The translations under genes and the position numbers were made by a program. From contig NW_026570246.1 of NCBI RefSeq assembly GCF_019649055.1, positions 310,001 through 374,000 on the forward strand: a stretch of 64,000 nucleotides of DNA, in the 5' to 3' direction. The notes under the pieces are model-generated. The model did not search any database. It was not told the origin of the DNA and saw only the letters and a list, made by a program, of their open reading frames with translations. The number at the start of each line of letters is the position of its first letter. Position 1 is the first letter of the stretch. Source of the stretch: Paramacrobiotus metropolitanus. Taxonomy: Eukaryota; Tardigrada; Eutardigrada; Parachela; Macrobiotidae. This document shows, piece by piece, positions 13,601 through 39,910 of the stretch.

Positions 13601-14881
13601 CGGATTTGACACATATGCCACCGACATCCCAACCGCGAACAGTAGCATACAGAAAAAAACATAAATGATGAGAATCACAAACTCGCTGGCGTAAGAGGAA
13701 AATGTTAACTGAAGACGTTGCACTGCAGCCTTTGCGCTTTCTTTCAGTTTTGTTGCATTTGGTCTGTAGGGATTAATAAAAGCAAGAGATCTGTTGGATA
13801 CAAACTTAAATAGTCGTCGTTCGAACTGCGCGTAGTACGATACAAATGTTATGATTGATACATGTTTCTACGTAGTACATAATCATATTGTAATCGAATA
13901 CTGATTTTTATAATTTGAAATCTGACAGGTACTAACTATATAGTGAAACTAACGTAACTACCTGATACTGCAAAATTTACTGCTACGCGCAATATACGAG
14001 TACCGGTATATCTATACAGATACATATGTACAGTAGCTGTATTGTACATACCGCGGAGGATTTGAAATTGCACTGCTAGATTGAGCGGCCTCTGATTGTA
14101 AGAAAGGGTCTCCGGTGTTGATGTCAGGAAGGTAGCTTTGCATCAGTATGCAGAATTCCTCCTCGCTCAGCATTCCATTGGAAGGTATGGATGCTGCGTC
14201 AAAAACATTATTAACCATCGTGATAGCCTTTTCGCTAGTAATTTGCAATCTGCAGTCGGAGGCTTCTTGAATAATGGATTCCATTAAATCCTCACGACTT
14301 AAAAGACCATCATGATCACGGTCGTAAGACTGAAAAACGGCCGACACTGTTGATACCGGTGGGCTTCGTAAAGCTCCGGAAACTTCCTCGGGCACAGGAT
14401 TTCTGAAATCAAGTCTTTGATCCTTAATTATCTTAATATTTTATAACTTTCCTCTAGTGCAAGTATTCAACAAAAAGCTAGCTTAATTTTTTGTGGTTGT
14501 TCAAGCTAGAATGTTAATTAACAAAGGTTACTTTTACTGCCTGGTCACTACGTACAGGTGAGCGTGCATTCAGTATAATGTTTAATATCATTCGATCGGT
14601 AACCGCTTTAATACTGGAAAATACTCGTACGTAGTTGAAATGTCACTGTCGCCAGTTGAAAATTTTCTCGAGAAAAGCAATGCAATTTTCAAAATTTTCT
14701 ACCGTTCACCATTTGCATAAGAAAGTGTCACACGCTTGAGGTTTCAGCTCTGTATCAAACTGTACGAACTGCCAAAAAAAGGTCGATCTGTTAACCATGT
14801 AGTATGTATTACAATAATATTCCTGTGCACGTACCTGGTCTTGGCAGAACTGGATAAATGCGGGAAAATCTCCAGTATCAT
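10615..14881 (-). CDS. NADPH oxidase, NOX5-like, copy A
   Basis: Eight exons in phase: 14835-14881 (proximal first exon), 14052-14402, 13363-13763, 13029-13225, 12564-12749, 12214-12346, 11219-11877 and 10615-10869, giving 742 residues. One clear EF-hand loop lies at residues 43-54 ([12 protein letters not shown]), followed by a degenerate one. Six membrane segments follow, with haem-ligand histidines in FH..(x13)..HTVAH and in FYWFH..(x12)..H. The FAD site is [10 protein letters not shown]. The NADPH site has [24 protein letters not shown] and FFCGS, and the chain ends in the family's terminal ENF. The enzyme should pass electrons from NADPH across a membrane to oxygen, making superoxide under calcium control. 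Copy B lies just downstream with matching exons. A second possible first exon lies at 15718-15764. Confidence 0.92.
11114..11139. repeat. AT-rich perfect palindrome in an intron of NOX copy A
   Basis: A 26-nt perfect palindrome centred on GATATATATATC, flanked by ATATACA and TGTATAT. It lies in the last intron of the gene. Being nearly pure AT with dinucleotide runs, it may have arisen from microsatellite slippage. Confidence 0.7.
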
Positions 14882-15717
14882 TTTATAAGTTGTAGATTTT
14901 AAAATAACAATTGACAAAAATTGTTTCAAAAGGACTGAAAAGAAGAAACGTGCTCTTTTTTAAAAACCCGAGCAGTTTAAAGTGTAAGCAGTGCAACAAT
15001 AGTTATACCCAAGTAAATCAAACTGTAGATGTGCAAATTTAGAAACCAGATGTTATAATATGACGGCACAATGACTACGGAAAAAACAACTCAGTGGGAC
15101 ATGTATTTATACTGCTGAATTAGGAGCATTTCCGAATGCAGTACTATTAATCATCTGATCTGCATTATGCTGTAATTGTACATCCCCTTCATATTGTGTG
15201 ACCCGCCGTTTCTTCGACGGGAATACATCGACCGTCACCAAGCTGAACACACACAATGTCTACACGTTGTAAATTAACGTCTAGCTACTACTCATAGGGC
15301 ACTTTGCCAAACTGTCATTCAGTCGAAATGAAACCCTGTCGTCAGAACACGAAGTCGACCATCGAAGTCGGCGTTGCGCACAGCATAATTAATTCAGAAC
15401 TTCCGATTAGTGAGATGTACAGGTAGCTCGAAGGGACACATGTCAATGGCACCTTTTAAAACGAAAAAATAAAACGCTACAATCTGCAGTATACCGGATG
15501 TTCTACAGTACAAATACGCAAATGCATCATCCGTTTCCCATCGTTTTCCAAGCATTGACAATTGATGAATCCAATGTATTTACGATGACGACTGACAAGA
15601 ATTAACTATCAACGCATTTGCTTTTAGCCGGCTGCGAGAAGTTGGCTGACACCATCTGCATTCTGCAATACCTATGTCATCACGAAAGGTCGATTTTATA
15701 ATGCAGAACGTACGTAC
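14882..15717. other. Duplicated 5' segment of NOX copy A
   Basis: Sequence between the two candidate first exons. The part next to the proximal exon (about 14882-15010) resembles the part next to the distal exon (about 15765-15890), consistent with a tandem duplication with a period of about 883 bp. No other coding signal was seen. Confidence 0.5.
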
Positions 15718-15764
15718 CTAGTCTTGACAGAATTGAATAAGTGCGGCAAAATTTTCAAAATCAT
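15718..15764 (-). CDS. Second (distal) candidate first exon of NOX copy A
   Basis: A duplicate of the proximal first exon (14835-14881), with the same 47-nt length, the same ATG and the same donor in the same phase (AG/GTACG). It encodes MILKILPHLFNSVKT, against [15 protein letters not shown] in the proximal copy, so either would splice in frame to the EF-hand exon at 14402. Similarity continues upstream, including a TATA-like TTTTTAAATAAG on the minus strand. It could be a real alternative promoter and exon or a decaying duplicate. Confidence 0.5.
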
Positions 15765-17360
15765 CTTTGCAAGATTTATTTCAGAAGGGCAAAATGTGCA
15801 ATGCCGCTTATTTAAAAACGCAAGCTCGTTGAAAGCGTAAGCCTTTCACAACAATCATGTCCACCAATACAGACAGAACAAGAATTTCTAAATTTGGGAA
15901 CCAAGGATGATTTTTAAAGGCCGATAGAGTGAATACGTTAAAAAAAACCTAGGTAACGTTTATATATATTTCTGTATCAGGGGTAATGTGATGTAATAGT
16001 TGTCCGATCAGACTTATGCAGTGCAATATACGGTGCCTTGTGCTAGTTGTATTACACTAATACTTTGTATATTTGAATCATAACCACCGTACGTATCCGT
16101 AGAGAGTTGTCGCTCTCTACGCACCTATAAAACAATTAAAAGATTGATGATGTTATTTATCATTCGCACAGCAAAAACTGTAAAAAACACTCGTCTGGTT
16201 TTTGCAGTGATACGCACTAACCATAAGACGCCGTCTTCCCTTCCCTATTTCTCCACCCTCCTAGAATAATTAGAAAATTAATGTCGTGCAAAACATTGTG
16301 AAACAATCGCCTGGGCTTGGCTGCTACCGACGTCACGGTCTATGAATAAATTTTATGTACGCTATTGGCTATAGCCTAAAGCCCAGGACAATAACAGTCG
16401 CATGGGCTCAAAATTTTCTCTTTTGCAATAATGTTTTTCGAACTTTTACAACTTTTTAATGCGGAAACAATATATTCGATTTTTTTATAACATTCTCTGT
16501 TGCAGATTTCTAACAATTTGGCCCACTGTTTTTATAAGAGCGCTTTAGATTGGTCAGACAGTTTCCAGTTTACGCTTTCCGATTATTAGAGTAGTGATTA
16601 AATCCCAAAATTAAGCAAGGATGTATGTGTGGCAGTAAGTTTTAGATTGGTAAATGTAATTGCCGTGTAACCTGTGTACATGTATTTACCATCATTACCA
16701 TGTGACTACCAGTACCATGACGCGGGGTGCTGGACTTCCGTATTTCAAAGAACCATTAAAGAGATGCGCAGTAAATGTGCAAGGCTACTTATAGGACGAC
16801 AACATGGAACAAACCGCGAATGACGAAAAACGTAAACAAGGTCACTATGAAAAACGCATACGGTACTGATGGAGGTTGTTTAAGAAATGTAAATGTGGCT
16901 GCATCATGGATCATGCATGAAGGAAACATGGAATTAACATGAATCGTAAACTAAAAGTGATGAAGAACGTAAACAAAGTCAACCTGAAATTAGTCACAAT
17001 ATATCCACTCGGAGTTTCAGACCGCCGTAAAAATAAACCGGTCTATCTGTACATGTGCGTGTTATGGGTTCGTTTTATGGGATACAGTACACTTACTGTT
17101 TGCATAAACCCAGAATTCTTTCTAAATTAAAATTTAATATTTAGAGTACAAATACCGGATCCGATCTGCCTATAATAATGCATTGCTCTTTACCGACATA
17201 GTCCCGACAACGCAAAATTTATAGCTGACCTTTAAAGTTTGAATACCCACAGACGTCGGACATGCTGATGCGATGTCTCTTTTATAACCATAAAACATAT
17301 TATGTTTAAGTACGTAACAAAATTAATGAAATAACAATTTCGAAAGACAGCAACTGGAAT
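15765..17360. other. Spacer between the two NOX genes
   Basis: About 1.6 kb, AT-rich, holding the upstream region of the distal NOX A first exon. A small open frame at 16939-17130 lacks splice context and family signature, and I take it as chance. Confidence 0.5.
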
Positions 17361-20300
17361 CTAAAAATTCTCCCATGAGAAATCAAATTTGTTCAGGGCA
17401 CACTGTTGACGAATCTCCCGACTAAGCTGGCGGCTCCCACAGAAGAATACGCGAACTTGACCTTTTTGCGACTTTGCGATTGACCCAAATACATCATTCC
17501 ATTTAGGCCGGCCCGTTCTTGTTTGGCTTTTTAAACCGGTGAGGATATCCGTCCGCGTTTGCTGGTAATGTAAGTTCATTCCCAGCGAGAGACCGGCGGT
17601 GGATAGACTTGTCTTCTGAAAACATTTTTATCGGTTTTATTAAAATTACACATTGTAACCGAACACGTTAGCGTAATAGCAAAGCAAAAGGAACAAATTT
17701 AGCTTTAACGAATACAGTACCTTCGGCCCGGAAGTGATATAAATTTGCGCCGTAACAAAATCCTCATTGGTGTTGTACACAGTCTCCAGCGTGGTTTGCT
17801 CGTGTTCCCATTCTTTAAGCAAGTCAATAAACCACTGTATGCTCATCTGATCCCGGCACACCCAGATGAAATCCACTTTCTTCAACTTCGTCGCCAGCCG
17901 GTTGCACATGGACAGATCGTTGTTGATGAAGGGGACATCCTTGTCGCAGTGGGGACATTTCATACGGTTGCGCCGGAAATGATGGACGATGCTGCCCAGG
18001 ATGGCTGCCATGGGTGTGATGCCGATACCGGAACCGATGAGGACGGCGTGTTCGGTGTGGAAGATGGCCGCCGTGGAACTGCCGTACGGCCCATCGATGA
18101 ACACCGGAATGGGTGTGGCTAGTGGGAACGATGAGACCGTGTTGCTTTTTGTAATGCTGGCTTCGTGTTGGGCATTCGCGTAATTGTTTTCTTCGAATTT
18201 GGGAAAATGGTTAACACTGAGTTTACGTAGAATAGCGATGGCCGTAGGATCCGACAGGACATTGGTGCGCAGATTTTGTAGAGACTGTTGGCTAATCAGC
18301 ACGGGACGGCGTTTCTTTTGCCGCTTGAGATGTGTGTACAGTGCTTTTGTCCAGTTTCCTACTACGCGAATGTGCAGCCATATGTTATCTGCAAAGAACA
18401 CTGGAAATGTCATAATGCTATAAAGGAAAGCAAATTTTAATTAACGAATTATAATCAAATATTTATGCATGTTCCGATCTAGGCTCATCTAGCGGGCACA
18501 TGAAACAATATTTTGCTCCGCACGACAAACCCAGAATGTTTTACTACGATGACTTATCATATCTGCTTTTAAATACAGTGAAGTACTCAGTCTGTTGCTG
18601 TTGCTTCAATCTCACCATCAAGTTCAGGTGCGCTGGAAATTGTAAAAGGATGCCATTCATGCCTGGCAACTGCCGGTATTTTGACGAAGACAAAATCTCC
18701 CGGGTTATGGGCGAAATTTTCGGGTCGTTTAATTGTTAGATGCATCACCTAACACGATGGAAAACCTGGATTTACTTAGCTGCGTTGAGGATTAGTACAT
18801 TATCATGGTTGTGTTACAGTATATTGCCAGCATTACCAGTACCGCTGTCTGGGCTTCATTTTCATACCTGTGAAGGCAACAGTGTCGCATGAATTATTTC
18901 CGCAGAAGAATTTTTCTTCCCAACGATGTAGTATTTACGTAGCTTTTCCACAATCAAGAGTACTCCGAAGAAACAAAAATACTTCCAAAAGTTGCGCGCG
19001 TGCAAGATAAGAATGAGCCAAAACACGTAGACGAGTTTATGGAACCAGTAAAACAACTGTAAGAAAAATCTTTGTTAGTCGGACAATCCAGACGTAGCCT
19101 TTCGCGTACGAGTAATAAGATTAAAGTTAACAGATATTTGCTTAACTGGAGACAGACCAAAATTAATATCAGTTTAGACAAAAATGCATATATACGAGGA
19201 CGAGTAAGTACATAAACTGAAGCTTAACACAGACCTGAAAATGTTGAGTCTGTCGGACGATTGGTAGCGAAAACAATACAACAGCAACAAAGATCAGGAT
19301 CAGGATCCAACCAGTAACAGATGCTAGCCCTTGAACCAATCCTGGCACGTCATGCCGGGGAACGAAAAGATACTCTGACAGCGAAGGAGAATCTTTTGGA
19401 TTCATCTCAATCATCTCTAAAAACAGTTAACTATTTCACTCACGTATAAAAGAAAAAACTATCTAATTAGCTACACGTATGGCTATCATAAAGAAATGAT
19501 TTGCTTCCTAAACGAACATCGCTAAGGATAAATTATTCTTGATTACCAACTCCTGGAATTCGGCCAGATTATAAATACTATATTAAATATATATAAATAT
19601 TATATTATTACAGAATATATATTCGGCCAGATTGTATATAATGCGTAAAGATTTGCACACATACCAGCAAAATTAACGATATGAGCCACGGTGTGGCATG
19701 CACCGGCAATACCAATACAAATTGCACATGTAATATGGAATTTTGGTAAAGCATCCAGTGGTAGAAACGATCCCAGCCCGGTCTTTCGCACAAAGGTCAT
19801 CGTCCAGTGCAAAATCGGCAGTATTATAATACTGCAGTTGATATCCAGTATCATACCGAAACCCTTTGCAACCAAATAGGCGTACATTCCATGTACGGAT
19901 TCGGGATCCTCCAGATAAGCCACAGCGGACCCGATGAAGAATAAAAGGACGCAGAACAAAATGTACACCGATAGGACAATGATTTCGTTCTTATATGGAA
20001 TCAGCTTCAATTTAACAGATCGCATAACAGATTCTGGTTTGGATTTCCATGCAAAAGTGTCGACTCTAAAATCATCAAGATGAGAAGATCTATACTTAAT
20101 GAGTCATGATCAAGCACTTAAATACTAAACTCAATTGCTCAAAATTTCGTTAATGACTACTATAAATAGATTTAGAGTTTCAGTTAGCATCTCGGTTCTT
20201 AACTTACTTATTTTATTACAGTACTCACTAGTACTAATGCACAAATACTACCCGTACCTCACGTATACCGGTACACGTAGTGCAATTTTAATTTTCTTAC

Positions 20301-20665
20301 CGATTTCCAGGATTTGATGGCGGTGTAACGGTGGTACCAGGGCTGCAAGTAATGTGAATGCCAGCATTAGCGTCGTTATGTGGAAGATAATCCTTCATCA
20401 ATGCCTGGAAATCATCTTTGCCCAGCATTCCATCGGCCGGTATGGCAGCTGCATCAAACACGGCATGGACCAGCTGCATGGCTTTTTCAGGAGATATATC
20501 CAACTGGTAGTCCGTGGCTTGCTTAACGATGGCTTTAAACAGGTCATGACGGCTCAAGAGCCCGTCATAATCGTAATCATAGGACTGGAATATGGTGGAC
20601 AGTGTCCGTGGAGGCACCGGGTGTGGCGCACTTGATACTGCTTCCGGCAACCGCATGGCGGCCAT
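17361..20665 (-). CDS. NADPH oxidase, NOX5-like, copy B
   Basis: Seven coding exons in phase: 20301-20665 (ATG), 19665-20065, 19235-19416, 18868-19056, 18616-18748, 17721-18388 and 17361-17615, giving 730 residues. The architecture matches copy A: an EF-hand loop (DYDYDGLLSRHD), six membrane segments with paired histidines (HTVAH; FYWFH..H), an FAD motif ([10 protein letters not shown]), NADPH motifs ([24 protein letters not shown]) and terminal ENF. Exons of 401, 133 and 255 nt are the same length in both copies. The first coding exon extends to an acceptor at 20672, so there is probably an upstream 5' UTR or N-terminal exon that I could not place. The predicted product is calcium-regulated superoxide. 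High conservation of all functional motifs argues that both copies are active. Confidence 0.92.
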
Positions 20666-20672
20666 TCTGCTG

Positions 20673-22360
20673 CTGAAATGATATGAAAAATGAGAGTGTA
20701 TTAAGTAATGCATGGCACGCATTCGTCTACATTCTATTGTTACATGCGAACATATTTTTTAAGATTTAGCTCATCACCATTTTATGCAAATCGGCGTTAT
20801 AATATACGTATACGCTTGCCATGGTTAGTGACTTTCGAGTTATATATTGATCATGAATATCTTTACATCAGTGTGTGTAAGAAATGCCGATGCCGGTCGT
20901 TCATATATTGTGCATGTAATGTTACCAACCATGTTATGTTTCCGTTTACATCGACATCAAAACCACTTTACAATAATAAGAAACGACAAATGTGCGCTAT
21001 CGAGTAGTGGTCAGTCGGTCTGGTTGTGGCTGCAATATGATTATATCTACTTATTTTAAGGGATGTCTTTAGCTAAATATTAGCGAAATACGTACTATAA
21101 TAAAAAGTAGCAGGCAGCAGCAAAATCGGCATTCAAGATTAAACTAGACAATAAAAGTTGTACCGCACTATCAATATTTTTGAAAGTAATTATGCGCAGA
21201 GCAATAGTTATTAGAAACAGATGCATAAAGCCGAAAGGGTATATAATATTTACCATTTGTTCGCTGGCAAAAGTGTACATGAAGCTCGTTTTACATAAGC
21301 TTTTATAACAATACACACTGGGCACTGAGTCACCAAAAACTAACACAGCGCTTACCCATCTTTATATATTTACTTACCGAAATCCGTTAAAAAGGTCAAG
21401 AGGGTGTCCTGCAATCCTGGCAAATCAAGTTTTTTTCCTGGAGTGGGGGATGTCTGTGATAACATGAGTACCAAAGTCATCCGAGCTTATGTTATTCCAG
21501 TTGCAACGTACTCGTATTAGCCGGACTAGCACTTGCCGTGATGGATCAGGGTTGCCCCGGACTGCCGGTGCGTTGGACAGGTACAGCGCATTTGTACTCT
21601 TCGGCTGCCACATAACAATACCGTGTGGTCGATGACTTATTTTTCCCGACCGAAAACCAATATTAGGAATAATCAGGCCTAAATAGTTCCTGTTCCGATG
21701 TTCCGCTACACCGCTGTAAAACATGGCATCGATTCATCTTGTGCAGTTCTGCCAAGCACTCGCACCTTTTGTCTAATTTGTCACGTGTGACGTCGGTATT
21801 GGGAATAAACATATTTGCTTAGAATAGCTGACAGAATTTCTGGTTGATGACTCCGCAGCAAAAATGCTCTTTTTGTTGAAGTCGAAGGTCGTCAACAAAT
21901 GTCTAGGAACTGAAAATCTGACATTTACGCCTATTCCAAATAACTGCATCGTACCAGCGGTCATTTCGGGAAGTAAGATTTCGAAAGGCGTTTATCAATT
22001 GAATTTTTTTAAAATACTGAATACGTATGCAACTGACATTTCCAGGATGGAGACTGCTCTAAACAAGTACGTATACTCGCACTGAAAATTCACGATCAGT
22101 ACAAGGTACTTACCTAAACGGTCCTAATGATGAACAGTTTAACTTACTGAACTTACATACCGGGAATTCATAAGAAATTTTAAGCGTTGCACCGCTTTAC
22201 TTATAGTACTGTACTTTTATCAACAATAAAAGTTTTTTTATTATAATAGTGACCAAGCTTGTGAATTCCTAAAGGGTTTGTCCATATCTGAACAATGCAC
22301 AAACTACAGCATTAAGTACAGTAACAAAACGTCTAATATGAACTGTTTGCGGTTGCGTTT
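20673..22360. other. Spacer upstream of NOX copy B
   Basis: About 1.7 kb that should contain the NOX B promoter and any non-coding first exon. No frame here joins NOX B in phase. The spacer ends at the poly(A) side of a retroelement fragment. Confidence 0.45.
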
Positions 22361-23230
22361 TTTTTAACACACTACTTTATTGATCGAATACAAAGATAAG
22401 CACAATTCACAAAAGAAACATCACATCCTAATATTAACAAACAGCAGAAACATGCGGCCGGATTACAGAGAACATTTGATCTAAATTAGCCGAGGCCGGT
22501 GCCGTTCCCAGGATGGATGCCGCGTTTCCACGTTGAATTTCGATGCTGAACCTCTGGTGCAAAAACTCCGTTGCACGTTTCTCGCCTGTTCCATGCCAGA
22601 TCATCTTGCCCACTTCGCTAATCAGCCGGGAGGCTTCCGGTCCGAGTGGCCCCACTGTCTCCACGCCGACCGCTCGGAACAGGTAATCGTGAGTGATGCT
22701 CTGGTACTTCTCGGCTTTTTTCCGTTCGGCCTGAGCCGCTGCTGCGCCGGCTTGCGTGGATGTTCCAGCGATATGGGAGAGAGCCATTGTACACACGCAT
22801 GTCACATCCCATGTTAACATTTTGCCTCGCTCCCACGGTACTAAGGTGACACCGTCAGGGCGTAGGCCGTTGGTTCGCGATATTCCCAAAGGCTCGAGTT
22901 CAGTCTCAATGGTGGCTGAGGCGAAAGCTCGTTTAAGCGTGGCATTTAAGCTTCTATGTCTAGCCTTCCGGCCCCGACTTTTCTTGCAGTTCAAGCCGTG
23001 GTAACCTCGAGCGTCCACCCATTCATTGCAGATACATCGGTGCGGAGTTGCGATCGGTGTGCCCAGGCGCAGGCCAACAGCAATTCGAAGTGCGGAATCG
23101 TTTAAAAGATTCCCCAGGGATGCAGCTGGTAGAGCATCTAGCCACGCTCCGTTGTCCTTGGTGCTTACACCTAGAAGCCGGGCTTGGTTGCGTTTATAAG
23201 TACTTACGAGTAGTATACTGTACTAGTAAT
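22361..23230 (-). mobile_element. 5'-truncated non-LTR-type retroelement fragment
   Basis: On the minus strand an open frame runs from about 23220 to the stop at 22434. It starts beyond the first ATG (at 23018) with NQARLLGVSTKDNGAWLDAL, continues through LRIAVGLRLGTPIATPHRCI and YHGLNCKKSRGRKARHRSLN, then RPDGVTLVPWERGKMLTWDV and QRGNAASILG. This order is familiar from the region downstream of reverse transcriptase in a widespread group of animal retroelement proteins. An AATAAA and a short A-run (reading minus, ending at about 22361) follow the stop, as expected for a retrotransposed 3' end. The reverse transcriptase itself is absent. About 260 residues remain without a stop, so the insertion is probably recent or the fragment is under constraint. 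Confidence 0.65.
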
Positions 23231-23711
23231 GAATGTTTTGTAAGTCCCGAAACAATGGTTAATACCATCTTCTACTAGTAGGTAACTGCCGTCAATGGGA
23301 GGCTGCTTCCAGATTACAGATATAGTACTCGTACTGTAATAAGTAAGTACCTATAGAATCTCCAAGACTCCCTCACAGTCATTAAGATAAAATCGACAGA
23401 AATTCAAAATTGCATTTCAAAATCAAGGCTGATGAAAAGTGGAATAGTTTAAAACTGTTAACTCCACGGTTTATAATTCTTTTAGTTTCGTTTCAGAACG
23501 TAAATTTGAGATGCAAAGCACGTATTTTATTTGTTTTAATCTGTGGAGTTTTTAGAGAATGCACTGATCAAGGAGTGCTTCGCAACAATCCGCTGGTAAA
23601 TCTTTTATTTCATGTCTTCGCTTGTCACTTATGGTTAGCTTTCTTAAGAAGTTAAGAAGCTAAGCGAGAGTGTTTAATTTGTATCCGTCGATTGCTCAAC
23701 AGCTGTGAATC
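23231..23711. other. Spacer upstream of COA7
   Basis: About 480 bp between the retroelement fragment and the COA7 start. It should contain the COA7 promoter. No coding feature was supported. Confidence 0.5.
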
Positions 23712-25005
23712 ATGACAACTATAGAGGGATTTCAGTCGAGAGAAGATGTGGAGGAGTATTTAAACAATCTGGGAATCGAGTACAGATTTCAGTGTTATTC
23801 CGAGCGGCGACCAGACGGTGAGTGCGGGAATACTTCGTCGCTAGCGACCTACTCGTAGTAGTATCTGTAGACTGTAGCGCTGGTTCCTTACTGAGTCGTG
23901 AACTGACTTTGTGACTGGCATGTTTAATAAATATCTGCCCATGGCAGCATCGTTAGCGTAGTTGTTTCGTTAGTGTTTGGTGTTTGGGAACAGCGTAAAC
24001 CTTGTAAAAGATCGACATTTTTGTCTGCCACTAATTTCGCTTTTACAGTTTTACTGCAACATTTTGCAGGATGCCACAGACTTGGTGAATTTCTGGAAGC
24101 AGTACGGAATGACTACGAGAAGGCTGCCGTGGTTTTCCAGCAGAATTGCGATGCCAATAATTTTACCAAAAGTTGTTTCAAGTTTGCCAACTACAAAATC
24201 GTTGGTCGAGGTGAGAATTTAATTTATTTATTTTATTTTGATTAATTTAATTTATTTTAATCCTGCTTACAGTACGGTGTACTGCACAGTGCATAGTATT
24301 AGTGCCTATTAAACCGCAAAGACTGTGCGATTATGATAGTATCACGTTATTTTACCGCAGAAACATGTAGAACTTGTCAAACCTAATATTACGCTTGCTT
24401 TCTTAATGTTTGACTTGATTAATTATAGAGTATTTATTTCATCTGAAATGATTTACGTTAGAATGCATTGATATTCTGATAGTGAGAAAAAGCCGTGTGT
24501 TGTGTAAGCAGTTACTTTACCTGTAACATTTTAGTGTCGATTATTGTGTCGTTTAGGTTGTACATCCGACCGACAATTGGCATTACAATACCACAAACAA
24601 GCATGCGCCGGTGGACATCCTGTCGGATGCTATCAAGCGGGTGTGCTCCAGCTGGGGGAACACGGCCTCGAAAGAAATCTACCTGAAGCGCGAAAGTACC
24701 TACATTTAGGCTGCGAGAAGGACGACTCGGAGAGCTGCTTCCTTTTAAGCACCAACTATTTAAACGCCCAACGGGACGATGCCCATCCGGTCAACGCCGA
24801 GGACGACGCCAAAGCCTTCTATTATACAAAACGCGCTTGTGATCTCAATCACATGTATGCCTGTGCGAATTTGCATCAGATGTATAAGAAAGCGATTGGC
24901 TGCGGTGCCGATGAAGAGGCGGCCAGGATGGCTAAGAAGAAGGCCATCGCCCTGCGGGATCTTTACCGACCCGGTGCACCTTCCATTGTTTTTGGGGAAC
25001 AGTGA
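23712..25005 (+). CDS. COA7: Cytochrome c oxidase assembly factor 7 (Sel1-repeat protein)
   Basis: Three exons: 23712-23817, 24070-24210 and 24557-25005, joined in phase 1, giving 231 residues, close to the usual length. The N-terminus MTTIEGFQSREDVEEYLNNL and QCYSERRPDGCHRLGEFLEA match the COA7 N-terminal pattern. Sel1-like repeats follow, each with paired cysteines (ALQYHKQACAGGHPVGCYQA, ARKYLHLGCEKDDSESCFLL, AFYYTKRACDLNHMYACANL). In animals COA7 is a disulphide-rich helical repeat protein of the mitochondrial intermembrane space, needed for complex IV assembly. No cleavable presequence is seen, as expected for import by oxidative folding. Confidence 0.93.
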
Positions 25006-25599: not shown

Positions 25600-28500
25600 T
25601 TAACGCCCATGTCGACGATAATTGGAATCAATGTTTTGCTCCAGCTCTTCTTCGACATCGTCAGTGACTTTGCAGTGCGCACCCGATCGCTTCCGGTAGC
25701 AACCGGCGTAGTCCATGGCATGCGCAATATAATTCTGTTCGTGTAGAGTATGGAATAAATGCGCAAATGGACCACGGGCATAAATCGCCACATCTTCGCC
25801 GCCGTGCGATTCAGAGCTCAGGGAAATCAAGGCCTCTTGCTGGAAATCTTCGTGCTCTGTGGAAGCAAAAAATTTATTGCTATTTTCAAATCCTTTTTGA
25901 GTTTTTAACAAGAACCGAGTATAAAACTACTCGTAAAGGTAACAAACACTGTGGACCGTAGCGTATGCCCTTACCGGTATCCACATGCGTCAGATCTCTG
26001 CGAGGTAATTGAGTTATCGCACCAGGACCATTTGCATAGGACAGGGTGGTATACGGCAGTCGGCTTTTATCTTTCCCGGCCAATTTCAATATCGAATTTC
26101 CTAAAGCATAAACATTGCGAATTGCTGCTATTATTAAAACAATAGTAACAGTAGCATGATAATTTTTGTTTAACGCTTACCTCGCTCCGGATAGCCAACA
26201 ATATTTAAGGTATGAGAATGATCAGCGGTAACTGCGAAGCAAATAACATCGATAAACATCGCGGAACAGATACAAAATTAGTTTTTTTCATCCATACCGA
26301 CAATGAGCGTATCCTCCAGAGGCACCATTTTGAGAGCGTTTGAAATTGCGTTATCAAACTCGAGCAGCTCATGCAGAGATAATTTCGCTTTTCCGTCATG
26401 ATGAGCATGATCTGTGAATCAAACATAATGAAACCGCTAAACGAAAAAATTAAATCGTAATAATCACGAAATGCCGCTAGTAGGCAATTACCGATGCGTC
26501 CTCCTTCGACCGCCAAGAAAAATCCTTGCTCATGTTTGGACAGCAGCTCAATGGCTTTGCGGGTCATTTCGGTGAGGGATGGTTGAGATCGAGAGGTGCG
26601 GTTTCTCTTTAATTCGTATTCTAGATGGTCATCACTGAATAATCCTAAAGCAAGCATCTTTTTAATGAATTTCTTGTTGACGTGAAACAACATGTTGTAC
26701 GTGCGGAACGCACCAAGAACGTAGTCGGTATTTTCCGGTGTCAGAGCACTCAGCTGATCCCGGGTTGTGATTGAGTGAGCTTTATCACCAAGCCCGTCGG
26801 CGATTTTGTGAGTCTTCCATTTCCGGAAGAGATTCTGGCCATCCAAGCGGTATCCTAACAAGAGAGCGACAGACGACAGTTAATAACTTCCCAGTCCCAG
26901 ACTAATTCCTATAGGCGCATCTGTCGGCTTCTGACCATATTTAACAACGGGCGTATGCTGCAAAGTTGCAAACTGACCTTTCTTTCCGGAACCAGAAGCA
27001 GACAGCTCGTTATTCGGCGTAAATTTTCGCAGTCCCCCACCAAAAATAACCTGAAGTTATATACAAATATTAAATTATCGGACATTCGTTTGTTCTTTTC
27101 ATCTTCTTTGTGCTTTCGAGCGCAATGAGTAAAAAAAAGCGTCAGTTAGTATTCTGGGTGCCGACTGTATAGCTGGAAAACAATAATTCCTATGAGAGAT
27201 GTAATTAAAATTGTGTTTAATAAAACCGCGTCCTACACTAAAATAGCCATAGCAAAAATTTAAAATTTCCCGAACGCGATGTTCGAGTCACCATTATATG
27301 CGGTGCTTGTTCATATATAGCTGCAGCTTGGCGCTTGCAAGAGGTTTTGCAAATTGTAATCTGGAAGCGTTACTAATTCTGAGACCTTCATACTGGTAGT
27401 TATCATTGGTGTAACCGGTATGAATGTTATCACTTTTCACCTCCTTGGTTTATAGACCTCCTTATTAATTAAATACTTGTGCTGCGTATCAGTATCGCAT
27501 AACAATATGTATCTGTACCTGATCTAATGCTCTAACTGACCTTCTAAATCAGACAGACACCGATATGATTATCAACGCCATGGCCACTCACATTCGCTCG
27601 TCTTCCCGGATTATTGTCGATCATCTGCTTGGCGATATCGGCGCACTGCCTGCGATCCTCCGCCGGAACATCCGCATCCGCTTCCCAGTCGCGATCCGGC
27701 GAGTGTGCATAAGTGGCAGCCGGTGTGGCATGCGTTATCCGCGTCGTCGTCACCAGTCCCGTGGCCTTGCCGGCATCCTGCGCCCACTCCAGGATGGACG
27801 TGATGGCGTGGTCTTTCGTTGCCGAGTTGCAGTCACCCAAACGCACAGTGCTGTCCACTCCGATGACGCCCATGGCCGCTTTCTGACCGCAGAAGTATGC
27901 AGTGGCAGTACCCGCGGAATCGGGTGTCTGGTAGTTGTCATTGTATGTCTACCCGGCATAAATCATGGGAATGAGTAAATAAGCACTGATGTGAAGGCAA
28001 ATATTGAAATGTACTCGTATTTAAATTGCATATTTAGCACAATTTCTTGCAAAGGTTAAAGTACATATAGAAGGCGGCATTTTATATCGGCATGAAAAGA
28101 AACCGCGCATTACAATGCAATTTTATCAGAGACTGAAAAACGGTGTATGTAAGTAGTAAGTAAGTACTGTATTAGTTCGTACATATGCCCGTAAATCATT
28201 TATTTAGTTACTTTGCGACTGCCTGATTCCCGGAATCGGTGCTGATACTCTCCATAAACAAAATCTGAAATTTAGTTCTGGCATCTTATTTAAATTTGTA
28301 GCTTACTTTAGCCAGACCCATGTGAGGAAACTCTTCGAAGACCAGCGATCCCTCCTCGCCATTGTGCCCGTGCTGTTGGCCTTTGTAGATTCGGCCAGCG
28401 GTCAGCGTGGATATGCCCATTCCATCTCCCAGGAAGAAAATAATATTCTTGGCTTTCTTCGTATTCAGTTTCACTTCCAGTGCTTTGCGCAGCTCTTCTT

Positions 28501-30306: not shown

Positions 30307-32195
30307 ATGATGGAGTCTGTTGATGATTCTTCATATCGTGACGAACATGATGTGGAATCAGTGGAGACTGGTCAGAGTGTCCATCCCGTGGAAAACACTA
30401 ATGTGGATGACGACATTGGGAAGGAAGAAGCCACCTCTTCGCAGGGAACATCTTCTGGTTCTTGTGCGAAAACCAAACACGAGGAGCGCATGAGAAAGCT
30501 GCGGGCACTTCACATGAAGCGGGTACGAATTTACAATCGCATAATTACTCTGTCAGCTACGCCGTGCGTTTCGCTTCATCGGTTTCTGCTCACTGTTGGT
30601 GTTAGTTGAATATCACAGGCTTGAATTTCACGTCTGTGAGGGTGATAATTCAGTTTTACATGGCCAACATGTGGTCCTTTATGGCTTTATGCGATTACAG
30701 CGCATTTGGTGGTTTCGACTGGTTTGTTTAACTGGTACTCTGCTTCCATAATTCTATGTTCAAAACTTTTTTTCGTTGGTATTTCGTGCAGCCTGCGACA
30801 TCGGTGCTTATCTTCAGATTTTAGTATGGTGTCTACAAATCGTTCTTTATCTGGTTGTATCACTTGTGTGTTTTAGAATGAGGCGAGGAGCTTGAATCAT
30901 AAAGATGTGGTTGCTGAAGATTATCAGAGAAAACTCCCGAAGAACTGGGAGGCAAAGCGCGCTCGAATGGAATGGAAACTGGACGATGAAGAGAAACGAA
31001 AGGTATGAAATGTAATTTGCCCGTAGTGTAAAGTTTAAACTGACATTTATAGAATTGGTGAAAGTGTGATAAGTTGATAACTGATCGCGGGATTTTGTAA
31101 GATGGGTTTTCGTTAGTTAATAGCCATTCTATAGACTGCAGGGTGAATATTTCTGGACATGAGAACGTTTTATATTAACTTTCTCACAAAGGGGAAAATT
31201 TTCACATCGCGTTTTGGTTTATTATCGTTGCGTTGTTCAGTGCTAAATTGGAACCGTCGCATTTTGATGCCGTATTTTGTCAAAGTTGATCGTGGAGGTT
31301 TTATACCACTACTGAGTGCGAACGGTGAATTGTACTGCACTTCATTTTCTGATACCTTATGAGTTATCTTATTAGCGAGCGCATAAATTTGTTGTGGGCA
31401 GTATGCAGTTGTCATTTATTCACTTGTCAGTAGATGCATATTTTACATTACACATTGTGTCTGGTTAATTAATGGAAGTCGTCGTTTCTTACACGGTTTT
31501 ATTTATTATACAGGATGCAGAAGAACAAGGCGAAGATTATGACCGTCTGAGAATGCTGGATGTTACCGCAGCGGAAGCCAGTGCCATGGATGCCAAGAAG
31601 AGGCGGAAGAAGAATCCCGATATGGGTTTCTCTACATTCGAAGACGCAACGATAAGGCAGTACGATAGCCTTACGAGGAACATCAAACCGAATTTCAAGA
31701 AATATGAGCAACAAAAGGAAGAACTGTACGATGCACGGTTTACTTCCATTTATTTTTTAGAATGCCCTTGTAAATTAATTATTATTGTTTCACCACGGAC
31801 GGCGCTCCACTACGATCCTGACTTGTTTCGTATTTTTGTTAGGGGCGATAAATTTTATGCATCGGCCAGCACGATACTACATGACGAAGTTAAGGATAGT
31901 CCAGAAGCCATTGAACGTTTAGTGGACGATGTAAAACACCAGTACGTGCATGTTGGAGCTACCGAAACTTGCATTTTGTGAAGTGAGAATACATACTGTA
32001 ACCTGAGTCTGTCTGAATGATGATTTTAGAGCGGAAAGAAGGGCCAAGTTCAGTCGGCGGCGTGCATACAATCCTGAATCTGAGATCGATTATATCAACG
32101 AAAAGAATATGAACTTCAATAAGAAACTGGAAAGATTTTACGGACAGTACACGTCGGAGACGAAGCAGAATTTGGAAAGAGGAACGGCGGTTTGA
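30307..32195 (+). CDS. SYF2: Pre-mRNA-splicing factor SYF2
   Basis: Five exons: 30307-30522, 30877-31002, 31514-31725, 31843-31941 and 32030-32195, giving 272 residues. The first 50 residues are acidic and Ser/Thr-rich. The helical SYF2 core follows: [74 protein letters not shown], then [20 protein letters not shown] and [19 protein letters not shown] at the C-terminus, all hallmarks of the family. SYF2 is a component of the Prp19-associated spliceosome, joining the catalytic core. The donor of exon 3 (AACT/GTACGATG) is chosen by phase, because it alone joins to the [15 protein letters not shown] exon in frame. The start is the first of two consecutive ATGs. Confidence 0.93.
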
Positions 32196-35215: not shown

Positions 35216-36698
35216 CTACACCTCATCCTTAGCCGAAGGCCACTGGTGCTTGGCACTGGTCAGCGGCACATACATCACTCCCATGAGGTTCTTGGACGTT
35301 ACTGTTCCATCCTGGGCTTTATCAATCTGCTGCAGTTCTTGAGCTCCACCTTCTGGTCCGACGGGTACGATCATGCGGCCCCCTGGCTTCAACTGATCCA
35401 GCAATTCCTGCGGCACTTTGGCCGCGGCCGCACCCACATGGATGGCATCATATGGACCGTCTGCCGCATATCCCTTGCGACCATCGCCCGTGACCAGCTT
35501 AATGCGTCCGGAATCTAGGAGGTCGGCGTCGTCTTTCTTTATGTTTTCACGGGAAAGATTAGTCAGTTCTGGCAGATGATCGATGCCGACGACTTTCCCG
35601 GAACGTCCAACCATATGGGCCATGGCCGCAGTTAAATAACCGGACCCGCATCCGACATCCAGTGCATTATTACCTGAAGGAAAGGGATATTAGGACACCT
35701 GCTACTTACTTGAATGCAGCAGCCAGCAGCACACTTCTTCTAGTACTATGTAAACTTCTTGACGAAAGTCAGTAATTTCGTAAGCAAATTTCGTAAGCAA
35801 TATAAATCAAACTCAAAACACCAGCAAGGGAACAGCAAACATCAAATATGAAATATGAATAACACCCGACGACTTTGATGGACTACAAAGAATTACCGCC
35901 GCACTGAATGGGATGAGCAATATGACGTAGTCAGCGGAAATTCCCACGCTCATGTCTATACAGTGCATTGTACAGTTTACCCCTACAACATGCCTGGGAA
36001 GCGTATTACTGCGTAAACCAACGTCCAACAGTATTTTATTTTTGATTATTTCAAAATTAATGGTCTGTAGTTCTCTGTCTTCGCTCCATTACTGCAGTGC
36101 AGTAATGGAGCGAAGTTAATTTTTACATTCGTCTTTTAACAACTTTGTTACAACAGTCTGCAAATACTTCAAAATCTAAAGACGCTAATAAAAGCTGCTA
36201 TTTATTACTCACAGACGAAATTAACAAAAAGCAAGTTTTCGCCTACCTTCTTTTAGTTGGTCTACAAGCAGCTCAAGCGCCGATGCATGCATGTGAGGAG
36301 CACTGCAAGTAACCTTCAGTAAATGCTACTTCGAAATAAAACGAAAGTACAAAGCAAAACCCTTTTGGCCTTTCAAAATTATTAAAATTCACATCCTACA
36401 AATCGCGGGATACGACAAAAAGACAAGAACATAATTCTACTGCTCGACAATTTACCTTATAGTTACTCCGAATCCGATGCTCTGGAAATGCAGAAAATTA
36501 TAAATAGGCTACCAAAACGTAGTAAAACTTCATTTCGAAATTCACCTGTGGGGCGTCCATGTAAGGATGCGTTTGGACGTAATTTTTCCTATCCACCTTC
36601 ATCATGGCTGCCTGGACGCGATCACTTTTGAAGATGCCATACTGCTTCAGCGATTCAATCAGCTCCTGATTGTTGCGTCCTTGCGATCTCCAAGCCAT
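35216..36698 (-). CDS. PCMT1: Protein-L-isoaspartate O-methyltransferase
   Basis: Four exons: 36546-36698, 36456-36481, 36247-36302 and 35216-35673, giving 230 residues, the usual length. It begins [20 protein letters not shown]. The peptide-substrate region reads [20 protein letters not shown] across the first three exons. AdoMet-binding motif I is [19 protein letters not shown], followed by [28 protein letters not shown] and [12 protein letters not shown]. The enzyme methylates isoaspartyl residues in aged proteins, starting their repair, mostly in the cytosol. The 573-nt last intron contains a perfect 37-nt palindrome. A hAT transposon is inserted only 157 bp upstream of the start codon and may affect its promoter. 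Confidence 0.95.
36079..36115. repeat. Perfect palindrome, 18-bp arms, 1-nt centre
   Basis: The arm CTTCGCTCCATTACTGCA is followed by one G and its exact reverse complement. It lies inside the last intron of PCMT1. Unlike the AT-rich palindrome at 11.1 kb it is of mixed composition, so chance is very unlikely. Confidence 0.9.
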
Positions 36699-38162: not shown

Positions 38163-38815
38163 CTGGGCCAGCTGCTGATTGTGGTGAGTCCATCAAAATG
38201 CAACGCTAGACGGTAATTTCGCGCACGGAAACAATTCTCTGTAGAAACCGGAAACAGCACGAGTTTCAGTTTAGAGCTCTTTTCAAAAGAGTTGCTTTCC
38301 AGTCAGTAATACATCCCCCACACTTCGGTAGCTTGATTGCAAAGTTTTGTCGCAGTCTTACGAAATCATTCCAGCGTTCTGGAAACGATATGAAAATTCT
38401 AGGAAGGGCTGGTAAATCACAACAGACCAGACTGCACATGGTCTATATATACAGTACTGTATCAACATCTGTTACGCGCGCGTCGCACTCCACGTTCTTG
38501 TACGCCCTGGTTACGCGTTAATGCGTGTCTGGAAGCCACCGGAAGTCTCCCCCTGTAGTAGAGCACTTGCTTATGTTTTTGTCAGATCGTATCGGCGCAA
38601 AAACAAACGATTGCGATCAGGCTGGTAATGTTACTACGAGTAGTTTGCAAATAATTGTTTATCCACGTAATTTCGATCATATGCATCACACTAATTCTGC
38701 GACAAAAAAGAAAAGCCACTTCCACTGAAATAATATTACATTGATATTATCTTTACATAAAATTAATCCATAAAATCCGTAGTAATTATCTTTCCATAGC
38801 ACTAACTGATAAGTA
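38163..38815. other. Spacer between hAT element and tandem repeat
   Basis: About 650 bp with no supported gene. It begins with the right-hand target duplication of the hAT element and should contain the ancestral upstream region of PCMT1. Confidence 0.4.
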
Positions 38816-39910
38816 CAAGCTGAGCACGGATGAATATTGGCTTACGACTATTTAAAATTACGTCGTATCTTCGTGTGTTGGATTGTGTTGCAAAGTCAGA
38901 ATGGCAAAGCCAGACAGGCTACAGCTACTTATTTAGGATGGTTAATTGCCGGCGGTGAGAATTGTGGGTTGTTGACCTTTTGCCCTAATGTTTTTTGGTT
39001 CATGGTTCGGCTGCTAAGTTTATGCTTATTCTGCTGAATTCTACTGAATCTGAGAAGCTGTTGTAGTGGTTTATCAGTGGGCGAAGTGATTGGTTAAGTG
39101 TTCACTCAGCCAGGGGAGCACAAGAAACGCAGAGGCGAAGCCGAAAATTTTTCTTGTTCAAATTTGTAAAGCTCGTGGCAACAGAGCTGCCCATCTTAGC
39201 CCTATGGCATCCATGGTAACAAGCTTTTCAGTGACCACTGGGCCTACGGCGATCGCAATGGCGAAAGGACAAGAGTCTAAGAACACTCCCCGCACTGGAA
39301 GGATTTTTATTCAATTTAAAGCAAAAAAATCGATTGATTAGAAGCGGAGATCACGCGTTACAATCAGGAGAGGCCGAAGGTCTGCAAGAGATGTTTAGTA
39401 TTCATATAACAAGCTGAGCACGGATGAATATTGGCTTACGACTAGGTACTGTGAATAAGTGAGTTAGGATTTGTTGTTACTACCAGTCGCAGAATAACGT
39501 CGTAGTATTACTGTTTAGTGAACTGGGCTGCAAGATTGACCGAACTGTTGATACAGCTCAGTGCATTGGGCCGCAAGGTGCGACAGTGTCACAGTGATCA
39601 AGTGAAATAGTGCAAGCAGTGATCAAGTGAAATAACAGTGTACTTGAGTTAACAGAGCCCATTTAGCCCAGTAATAACAGCTTGGTGACCAGTGGACTAC
39701 CATGGCATCCATGGTAACAAGCTTTCAAGTGACCAGTGGGCCTACCGCGATCGCGATGGCGAAAGGTCAAGAGTCTAAGAACACTCCCCACACTGGGGGG
39801 ATTCTTGTGCAATTTGAAGCAGAAAAATCGACTGAGTAGAAACGGAGATCACCCGTTACATTCAAGAGAAGCCGAAGGTCTGCAAGAGATGTTTAGTATT
39901 CATATAACTA
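38816..39910 (+). repeat. Two diverged copies of a dispersed repeat with a short conserved ORF
   Basis: A 35-bp block beginning CAAGCTGAGCACGGATGAAT occurs at 38816-38850 and 39410-39444. A second block of about 210 bp occurs at about 39200-39410 and 39700-39910. Each long block contains the same 46-codon frame (39204-39341 and 39702-39839) starting MASMVTSF and including VT(S/T)GPTAIAMAKGQESKNTP. Both then run through GCCGAAGGTCTGCAAGAGAT to GTATTCATATAAC. The order suggests two nested or tandem copies of the leader region of a mobile element. The element class is not clear. Confidence 0.65.

Follow-up and report, generated by a model that had tools for sequence, protein, structure and literature searches.

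A candidate local duplication of promoter region and first coding exon in a NOX5-type oxidase gene of the tardigrade Paramacrobiotus metropolitanus

Introduction

Can one NADPH oxidase gene have two separate starts, each with its own promoter region and its own short coding exon? The question is raised by a gene that we call NOX A, which lies on the minus strand of a 64,000-nucleotide stretch of the Paramacrobiotus metropolitanus genome (RefSeq assembly GCF_019649055.1, contig NW_026570246.1, positions 310,001 to 374,000; hereafter the window, within which all coordinates are numbered). Upstream of its EF-hand exon stand two similar short exons, copy A (proximal) and copy B (distal), either of which could open the reading frame. 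Judging from the sequence, we consider it somewhat probable that the promoter region and the short first coding exon of NOX A were duplicated locally and that both copies serve as alternative starts. The features on which this argument draws are listed in Table 1.

Table 1. Features of the NOX A locus, its paralog and other genes of the window
Feature	Position	Strand	Remarks
Exon 1, copy A (proximal)	14835-14881	-	ATG, 15 codons + 2 nt; donor CAG/GTACGT, score 10.9
Exon 1, copy B (distal)	15718-15764	-	ATG, 15 codons + 2 nt, MILKILPHLFNSVKT; donor TAG/GTACGT, score 8.6
Homologous block, copy A (upstream region, exon 1, donor)	14827-15189	-	blastn, shuffles
Homologous block, copy B (upstream region, exon 1, donor)	15710-16039	-	blastn, shuffles
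TTTTTAAA block, copy A	14959-14966	-	its first T precedes the A of TCAGT by 30 nt
TTTTTAAA block, copy B	15811-15818	-	no TCAGT found in 15740-16060
TATAAATA, copy A	15104-15111	-	perfect TATAWAWR; 230 bp upstream of ATG
TATATATA, copy B	15961-15968	-	perfect TATAWAWR; 204 bp upstream of ATG; aligns with its counterpart in copy A
TCAGT, copy A only	14934-14938	-	initiator-like, or splice acceptor TTTCTTCTTTTCAG/T
NOX A exon 2 (EF-hand exon)	14052-14402	-	placed by acceptor and phase; Pfam EF-hand_7 at residues 38-104; joined by both copies
NOX A exons 3-8	13763-13363, 13225-13029, 12749-12564, 12346-12214, 11877-11219, 10869-10615	-	transmembrane, FAD and NAD domains
NOX B, tandem paralog, exons 2-8	17361-20672	-	possible own ATG inside EF-hand exon
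Sel1-repeat protein gene piece	24535-25005	+	Pfam
Alkaline phosphatase gene piece	26205-26879	-	Pfam
SYF2 splicing factor gene piece	31469-31981	+	Pfam
Protein-isoaspartate methyltransferase gene piece	35216-35689	-	Pfam

Results and Discussion

Two first exons share a frame and a phase

The sequence shows the anatomy, the frame and the homology of the copies. Both exons are 47 nt long and are followed by a GTACGT donor in phase 2; their starts are separated by 883 bp. TTGATTTCAG precedes the EF-hand exon, whose first base, at 14402, is the third of an arginine codon common to both copies, and joining either copy to 14402 gives a complete, open NOX5-type protein of 742 aa. A first-pass annotation of the window had described two such ATG exons of 15 codons with same-phase donors, and had proposed that both join the EF-hand exon in frame; direct reading confirmed the former, and the 742-aa models bear out that in-frame splicing is possible in both. 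The copies are identical at 37 of 47 nt without a gap, and 10 of their 15 residues match. The encoded termini differ in net charge (+3 in B vs +1 in A, residue 16 included) and in hydrophobic moment (0.40 in B vs 0.26 in A).

NOX A needs a coding exon further upstream, because its EF-hand exon contains no in-frame ATG ahead of the first EF loop. We scored candidate donors with a matrix built from the 12 NOX donors other than those of copies A and B. The copies hold the two top donors among the 22 that score at least 4 in 14403-17360, with the next at 7.5. Fifteen donors upstream of NOX A score at least 5, and three of them end an open phase-2 exon that starts with ATG: copies A and B, and one of 4 codons (5.2). 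Single candidates that combine an ATG with a donor have a single-strand density of 0.30 per 2.96 kb (score at least 8.5, at least 10 codons, copies A and B counted in), which rises to about 2 per 2.96 kb at a looser threshold. Three phase-2 candidates lie upstream of NOX B, with 10, 3 and 15 codons and scores of 5.5, 10.5 and 8.4; the 15-codon one is unrelated to the copies. Because lone candidates of this kind are not rare, the weight of the argument rests on the homology of the pair.

The copies belong to a larger homologous block

Within the window, blastn aligns 15189-14827 with 16039-15710 at 61% identity over 372 columns (E 4.9e-14), and the block alignment scores 453, where the best of 500 shuffles reaches 216. 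The upstream part alone, with the exon removed, scores 366 (maximum 176 in 500 dinucleotide shuffles), and even the far upstream part (15061-15189) reaches 151, above a shuffle maximum of 105. The suggestion of the first-pass annotation that promoter region and exon were copied together is thus well supported by homology, also with the exon left out. Its observation that the similarity continues upstream into a TATA-like block also stands, except for the extent: the similarity runs past the limits first given for it, reaching about position -308 in copy A and -275 in copy B relative to the ATG.

Beyond the block the resemblance ends. The 3' (intron) flanks, 14403-14828 vs 15291-15711, give a score that 77 of 500 shuffles reach, and the score of the 5' flanks, 15190-15700 vs 16040-16560, is reached by 358 of 500. 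Since the flanks score within shuffles on both sides, we rejected an alignable tandem unit of 883 bp. A longer alignment, 14445-15277, scored 901 vs 813, above all 300 shuffles; separate tests place its signal in the core block. A 10-base word, ATCGACCTTT, occurs in both introns past the donors; it came from a forced alignment with a long gap (25 of 31 columns identical in 14834-14780) and was not counted. The alignable block is upstream region, exon and donor.

A third copy was found across the 64 kb neither by blastn (next-best DNA match E 0.22 for A and 0.56 for B) nor by tblastn of either peptide (next-best match E 0.61). The DNA upstream of NOX B gave no blastn match to the copies. With tblastn, no match to peptide A there was among the first 30 listed, and none of the 96 listed for peptide B fell on the minus strand of 20673-23713.

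Each copy carries its own candidate promoter sites

Each copy has its own duplicated upstream region with TATA-like sites, whose promoter activity is predicted from their letters. The first-pass annotation had picked out TTTTTAAA as TATA-like. The site is conserved in both copies, but a better TATA match lies further up in both and is aligned between them. We therefore treat TTTTTAAA as one of two candidate core promoters, the other being the upper TATAWAWR. This motif is over-represented in the window (70 matches vs 36.7 expected), so that a single match means little. The sole upstream ATG of copy A (15102, 3 codons) would precede the start expected from the upper TATA. A TCAGT about 30 nt past a TATA box has the spacing and sequence typical of arthropod TATA-initiator promoters, and copy A has this arrangement downstream of TTTTTAAA.

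The same letters permit another reading of the locus, in which copy B is the main start and copy A is entered through an acceptor at 14934, either as an internal or 5' untranslated exon or as a switch (a stop, followed by degradation or re-initiation). The acceptor TTTCTTCTTTTCAG scores 7.3, on a par with many NOX acceptors, whose 14 scores range from -4.4 to 11.9, and copy B joined to it would run into a stop one base before the ATG of copy A. Equally, these letters, which lie 30 nt from TTTTTAAA, could be an initiator; no acceptor above 3 was found before copy B in 15755-15950, and use of the copy A acceptor is itself a prediction. We hold this alternative to be quite improbable.

Is copy B still a working exon?

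The alternative that deserves the most attention is that copy A alone is the working start, with copy B a relic of the duplication that still looks intact; we think this rather unlikely. The donor of copy A is the better one (10.9 vs 8.6), only copy A has TTTTTAAA followed by TCAGT at 30 nt, and neutral decay would spare the ATG, the GT and an open 15-codon exon in 11-23% of simulations. Against these points stands the integrity of copy B, which has retained the GTACGT donor, the ATG, TTTTTAAA and TATAWAWR. Its exon shows no gap in 47 columns, compared with 14 gap events in the 191 columns just upstream; this contrast has a Poisson P of 0.03, or of 0.08 at a lower gap rate that was assumed rather than counted. 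Half of the 10 differences between the copies are synonymous, though synonymous sites make up only about one-fifth of the exon (9.5 of 45), and nonsynonymous divergence is low beside synonymous divergence (about 0.16 vs 0.91, the latter from just those 9.5 sites). Support for selection on the 15 codons is modest.

The flanks bear on the block as a whole. If the 883-bp spacing reflects a tandem unit, about 520 bp of that unit can no longer be aligned, and for each flank, simulation at 25% or 33% divergence gave a higher score than the real one in all 200 runs. This suggests that the block of promoter and exon was held back from diverging, because the rest of the supposed unit would have diverged far more than the block did.

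Several observations count against two working starts. Exon identity (37/47, 0.787) barely exceeds that of the aligned upstream columns (107/142, 0.754), and neutral simulation without indels leaves the ATG, the GT and a stop-free exon in place in 23% of runs at 21% divergence, 17% at 25% and 11% at 30%; when no more than 5 residue changes are allowed as well, these shares become 12%, 5.6% and 1.7%. At 50% simulated divergence, 21.5% (3') and 3% (5') of the flank runs fall at or below the observed score, and the argument for constraint on the block fails if a smaller piece was copied, if the duplication was a dispersed insertion, or if there was a later insertion. Copy B is without the TCAGT found in copy A, and its stretch from TTTTTAAA to the ATG is shorter (54 vs 85 bp in A). 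Finally, a start about 30 nt past the upper TATA would give copy B transcripts an upstream ATG (15858) with a frame of 16 codons.

How two starts could work

Under our favored reading of two alternative starts, a local duplication would have copied the promoter region together with the first exon, probably after NOX A and NOX B had split. Transcription would begin at one of the two promoters, distal (B) or proximal (A), and would take in the coding first exon belonging to it, which the same phase-2 donor would then splice to the common EF-hand exon. In transcripts that start at B, copy A would sit in the first intron and be skipped. The outcome would be a pair of 742-aa oxidases with 5 differences among their first 15 residues.

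We infer that both promoters are active and differently regulated, and that the more basic terminus of B matters. As a speculation, this more basic and more amphipathic terminus might alter membrane contact. A bolder proposal goes further: the choice of promoter, through N-terminal charge and amphipathicity, would set the membrane site or the calcium level at which superoxide is produced, and the acceptor of copy A would add a second switch that shuts off or re-initiates distal transcripts. We regard it as distinctly unlikely.

NOX A and its paralog NOX B

Exon borders of the NOX genes were placed by hand from a comparison of NOX A with NOX B. Across the two genes, all 12 donors have GT and all 14 acceptors have AG, and both frames stay open to a common C-terminus, SWENF. 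Pfam Ferric_reduct, FAD_binding_8 and NAD_binding_6 exceed their cut-offs in NOX A, and ferric-reductase, FAD and NAD domains are also present in NOX B. The EF-hand pair passes the curated Pfam cut-off in NOX A only (32.8 vs 30); NOX B scores 22 bits against the same cut-off of 30, and its calcium control may consequently be weak or lost.

Among proteins of solved structure, human NOX5 comes closest to NOX A (E 1.9e-110, with an alignment that starts at chain residue 60), and the domain order of NOX A, an EF-hand region followed by ferric-reductase membrane, FAD and NADPH domains, matches that of a NOX5-type NADPH oxidase. On these grounds we classify NOX A as a gene for a NOX5-type, calcium-regulated, superoxide-generating oxidase. 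Human NOX5 has four EF-hands, which the single EF-hand pair of the NOX A model does not match. Because the alignment begins at residue 60 of human NOX5, the model is without the N-terminal part of the NOX5 EF-hand region; we read this as a shortened regulatory domain within the NOX5 family and not as an exclusion from it. The EF-hand region of NOX B (20301-20672, minus strand) looks to be the same length as that of NOX A.

A scan for the EF-loop pattern in the three minus-strand frames upstream of NOX A (14403-17360) and NOX B (20673-23713) returned no match. It bears on the possibility that neither copy is the true start, the gene beginning instead at exons further upstream or with a spliced leader, and the block being a regulatory element or an unrecognized repeat. 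The residues of human NOX5 that lie ahead of the alignment start would fit such missing exons, and the abundance of single ATG-plus-donor candidates at the looser threshold lowers the value of any one of them. The upstream frames of both genes are nonetheless free of EF-hand loop patterns, no other donor in the region upstream of NOX A scores as high as those of the two copies, and no third copy of the block was found in the window. We judge this possibility very improbable.

For NOX B, the start may be an ATG within its EF-hand exon. At the head of that exon (20660-20672, minus strand), TTTCAG is followed by CAGCAGAATGG, which may be a tandem acceptor of the NAGNAG type directly before the possible start ATG. 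Further upstream of NOX B, a 262-aa open frame (22434-23222, minus strand) has no Pfam match at E 0.001; it looks like a retroelement fragment. We also sought relatives of the two genes in collections of contigs. The 27 pattern matches for NOX A in a genome collection and the 7 for NOX B in a viral one yielded no confirmed relative, and as both collections are poor sources of animal DNA, this absence says little.

The exon duplication and the gene duplication

Of the 721 residues aligned between NOX A and NOX B, 442 are shared, and the synonymous sites of the two genes are saturated (proportion of synonymous differences, pS, 0.75). None of the six introns compared scores above all 200 shuffles. 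Between the two copies of exon 1 there are 5 differences at about 9.5 synonymous sites (synonymous divergence, dS, about 0.9) and 5 at 35.5 nonsynonymous sites (nonsynonymous divergence, dN, about 0.16). The relative age of the exon duplication is therefore supported: with NOX A and NOX B saturated and their intron alignments within the range of shuffles, whereas the copies have a dS of about 0.9 and upstream DNA that still aligns, the exon duplication is probably younger than the split of the two genes, although this dating is rough and uses few sites.

Other features of the window

Pieces of four other genes were recognized by their Pfam domains (Table 1). The 8-mer TACTCGTA occurs at 21 sites on both strands between 10959 and 46836, where 1.26 are expected and at most 5 occurred in 100 shuffles; by eye, its flanks form no common longer unit. 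There are two direct repeats, one of 207 bp (90% identical, 39204-39410 and 39702-39908, starts about 500 bp apart) and one of 36 bp (100% identical, 38815-38850 and 39409-39444, starts 594 bp apart). A near-perfect palindrome of 37 bp (36079-36115) is 97% identical to its own reverse complement.

Comparison with known systems

Human NOX5, of the same enzyme family, likewise has several isoforms: variants alpha, beta, gamma and delta and a short form that is without the calcium-binding domains (PMC6354601). The part of that source describing the variants includes no duplicated first exon, and in NOX A, unlike the short form, the EF-hand exon is common to both predicted forms. Among tardigrades, a preprint on Hypsibius exemplaris reports NOX-5 as the only NOX type, duplicated five times (PMC13228310). 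Multiple NOX5-type genes are thus a point of likeness with the tandem pair in our window; a first-exon duplication is not mentioned in the passages on these genes. The same preprint describes lower stress survival of a tardigrade after inhibition of NADPH oxidase, with the authors' caution that the inhibitor has other targets, and genes related to reactive oxygen species are described elsewhere as expanded in tardigrades and rotifers (PMC7730656). Among the titles and openings of abstracts listed by our literature search, none named a duplicated first exon in an NADPH oxidase gene, although one may still have been published.

If both starts are used, NOX A would be a clear, small case of a promoter and a coding start copied together, and the duplication would place an extra regulatory layer on a NOX5-type enzyme. 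Its relative age can be read against the adjoining paralog NOX B, in which neither copy has a match.

By analogy, the arrangement is of a kind already described for human PGM1, which has two promoters and paralogous first exons whose products are about 51% identical, and whose paralog PGM5 is without the duplicated exon (PMC7101342). Both systems combine a local duplication of the first coding exon with two promoters (predicted in our case), common downstream exons and two N-termini, and NOX B, in which neither copy found a match, parallels PGM5. The first-exon products of NOX A match at 10 of 15 residues. The upstream DNA of the NOX A copies can still be aligned, a point on which the PGM1 passages are silent. 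Both PGM1 isoforms are reported there to be biologically relevant and conserved in vertebrates (PMC7101342), whereas for NOX A we infer the use of both starts.

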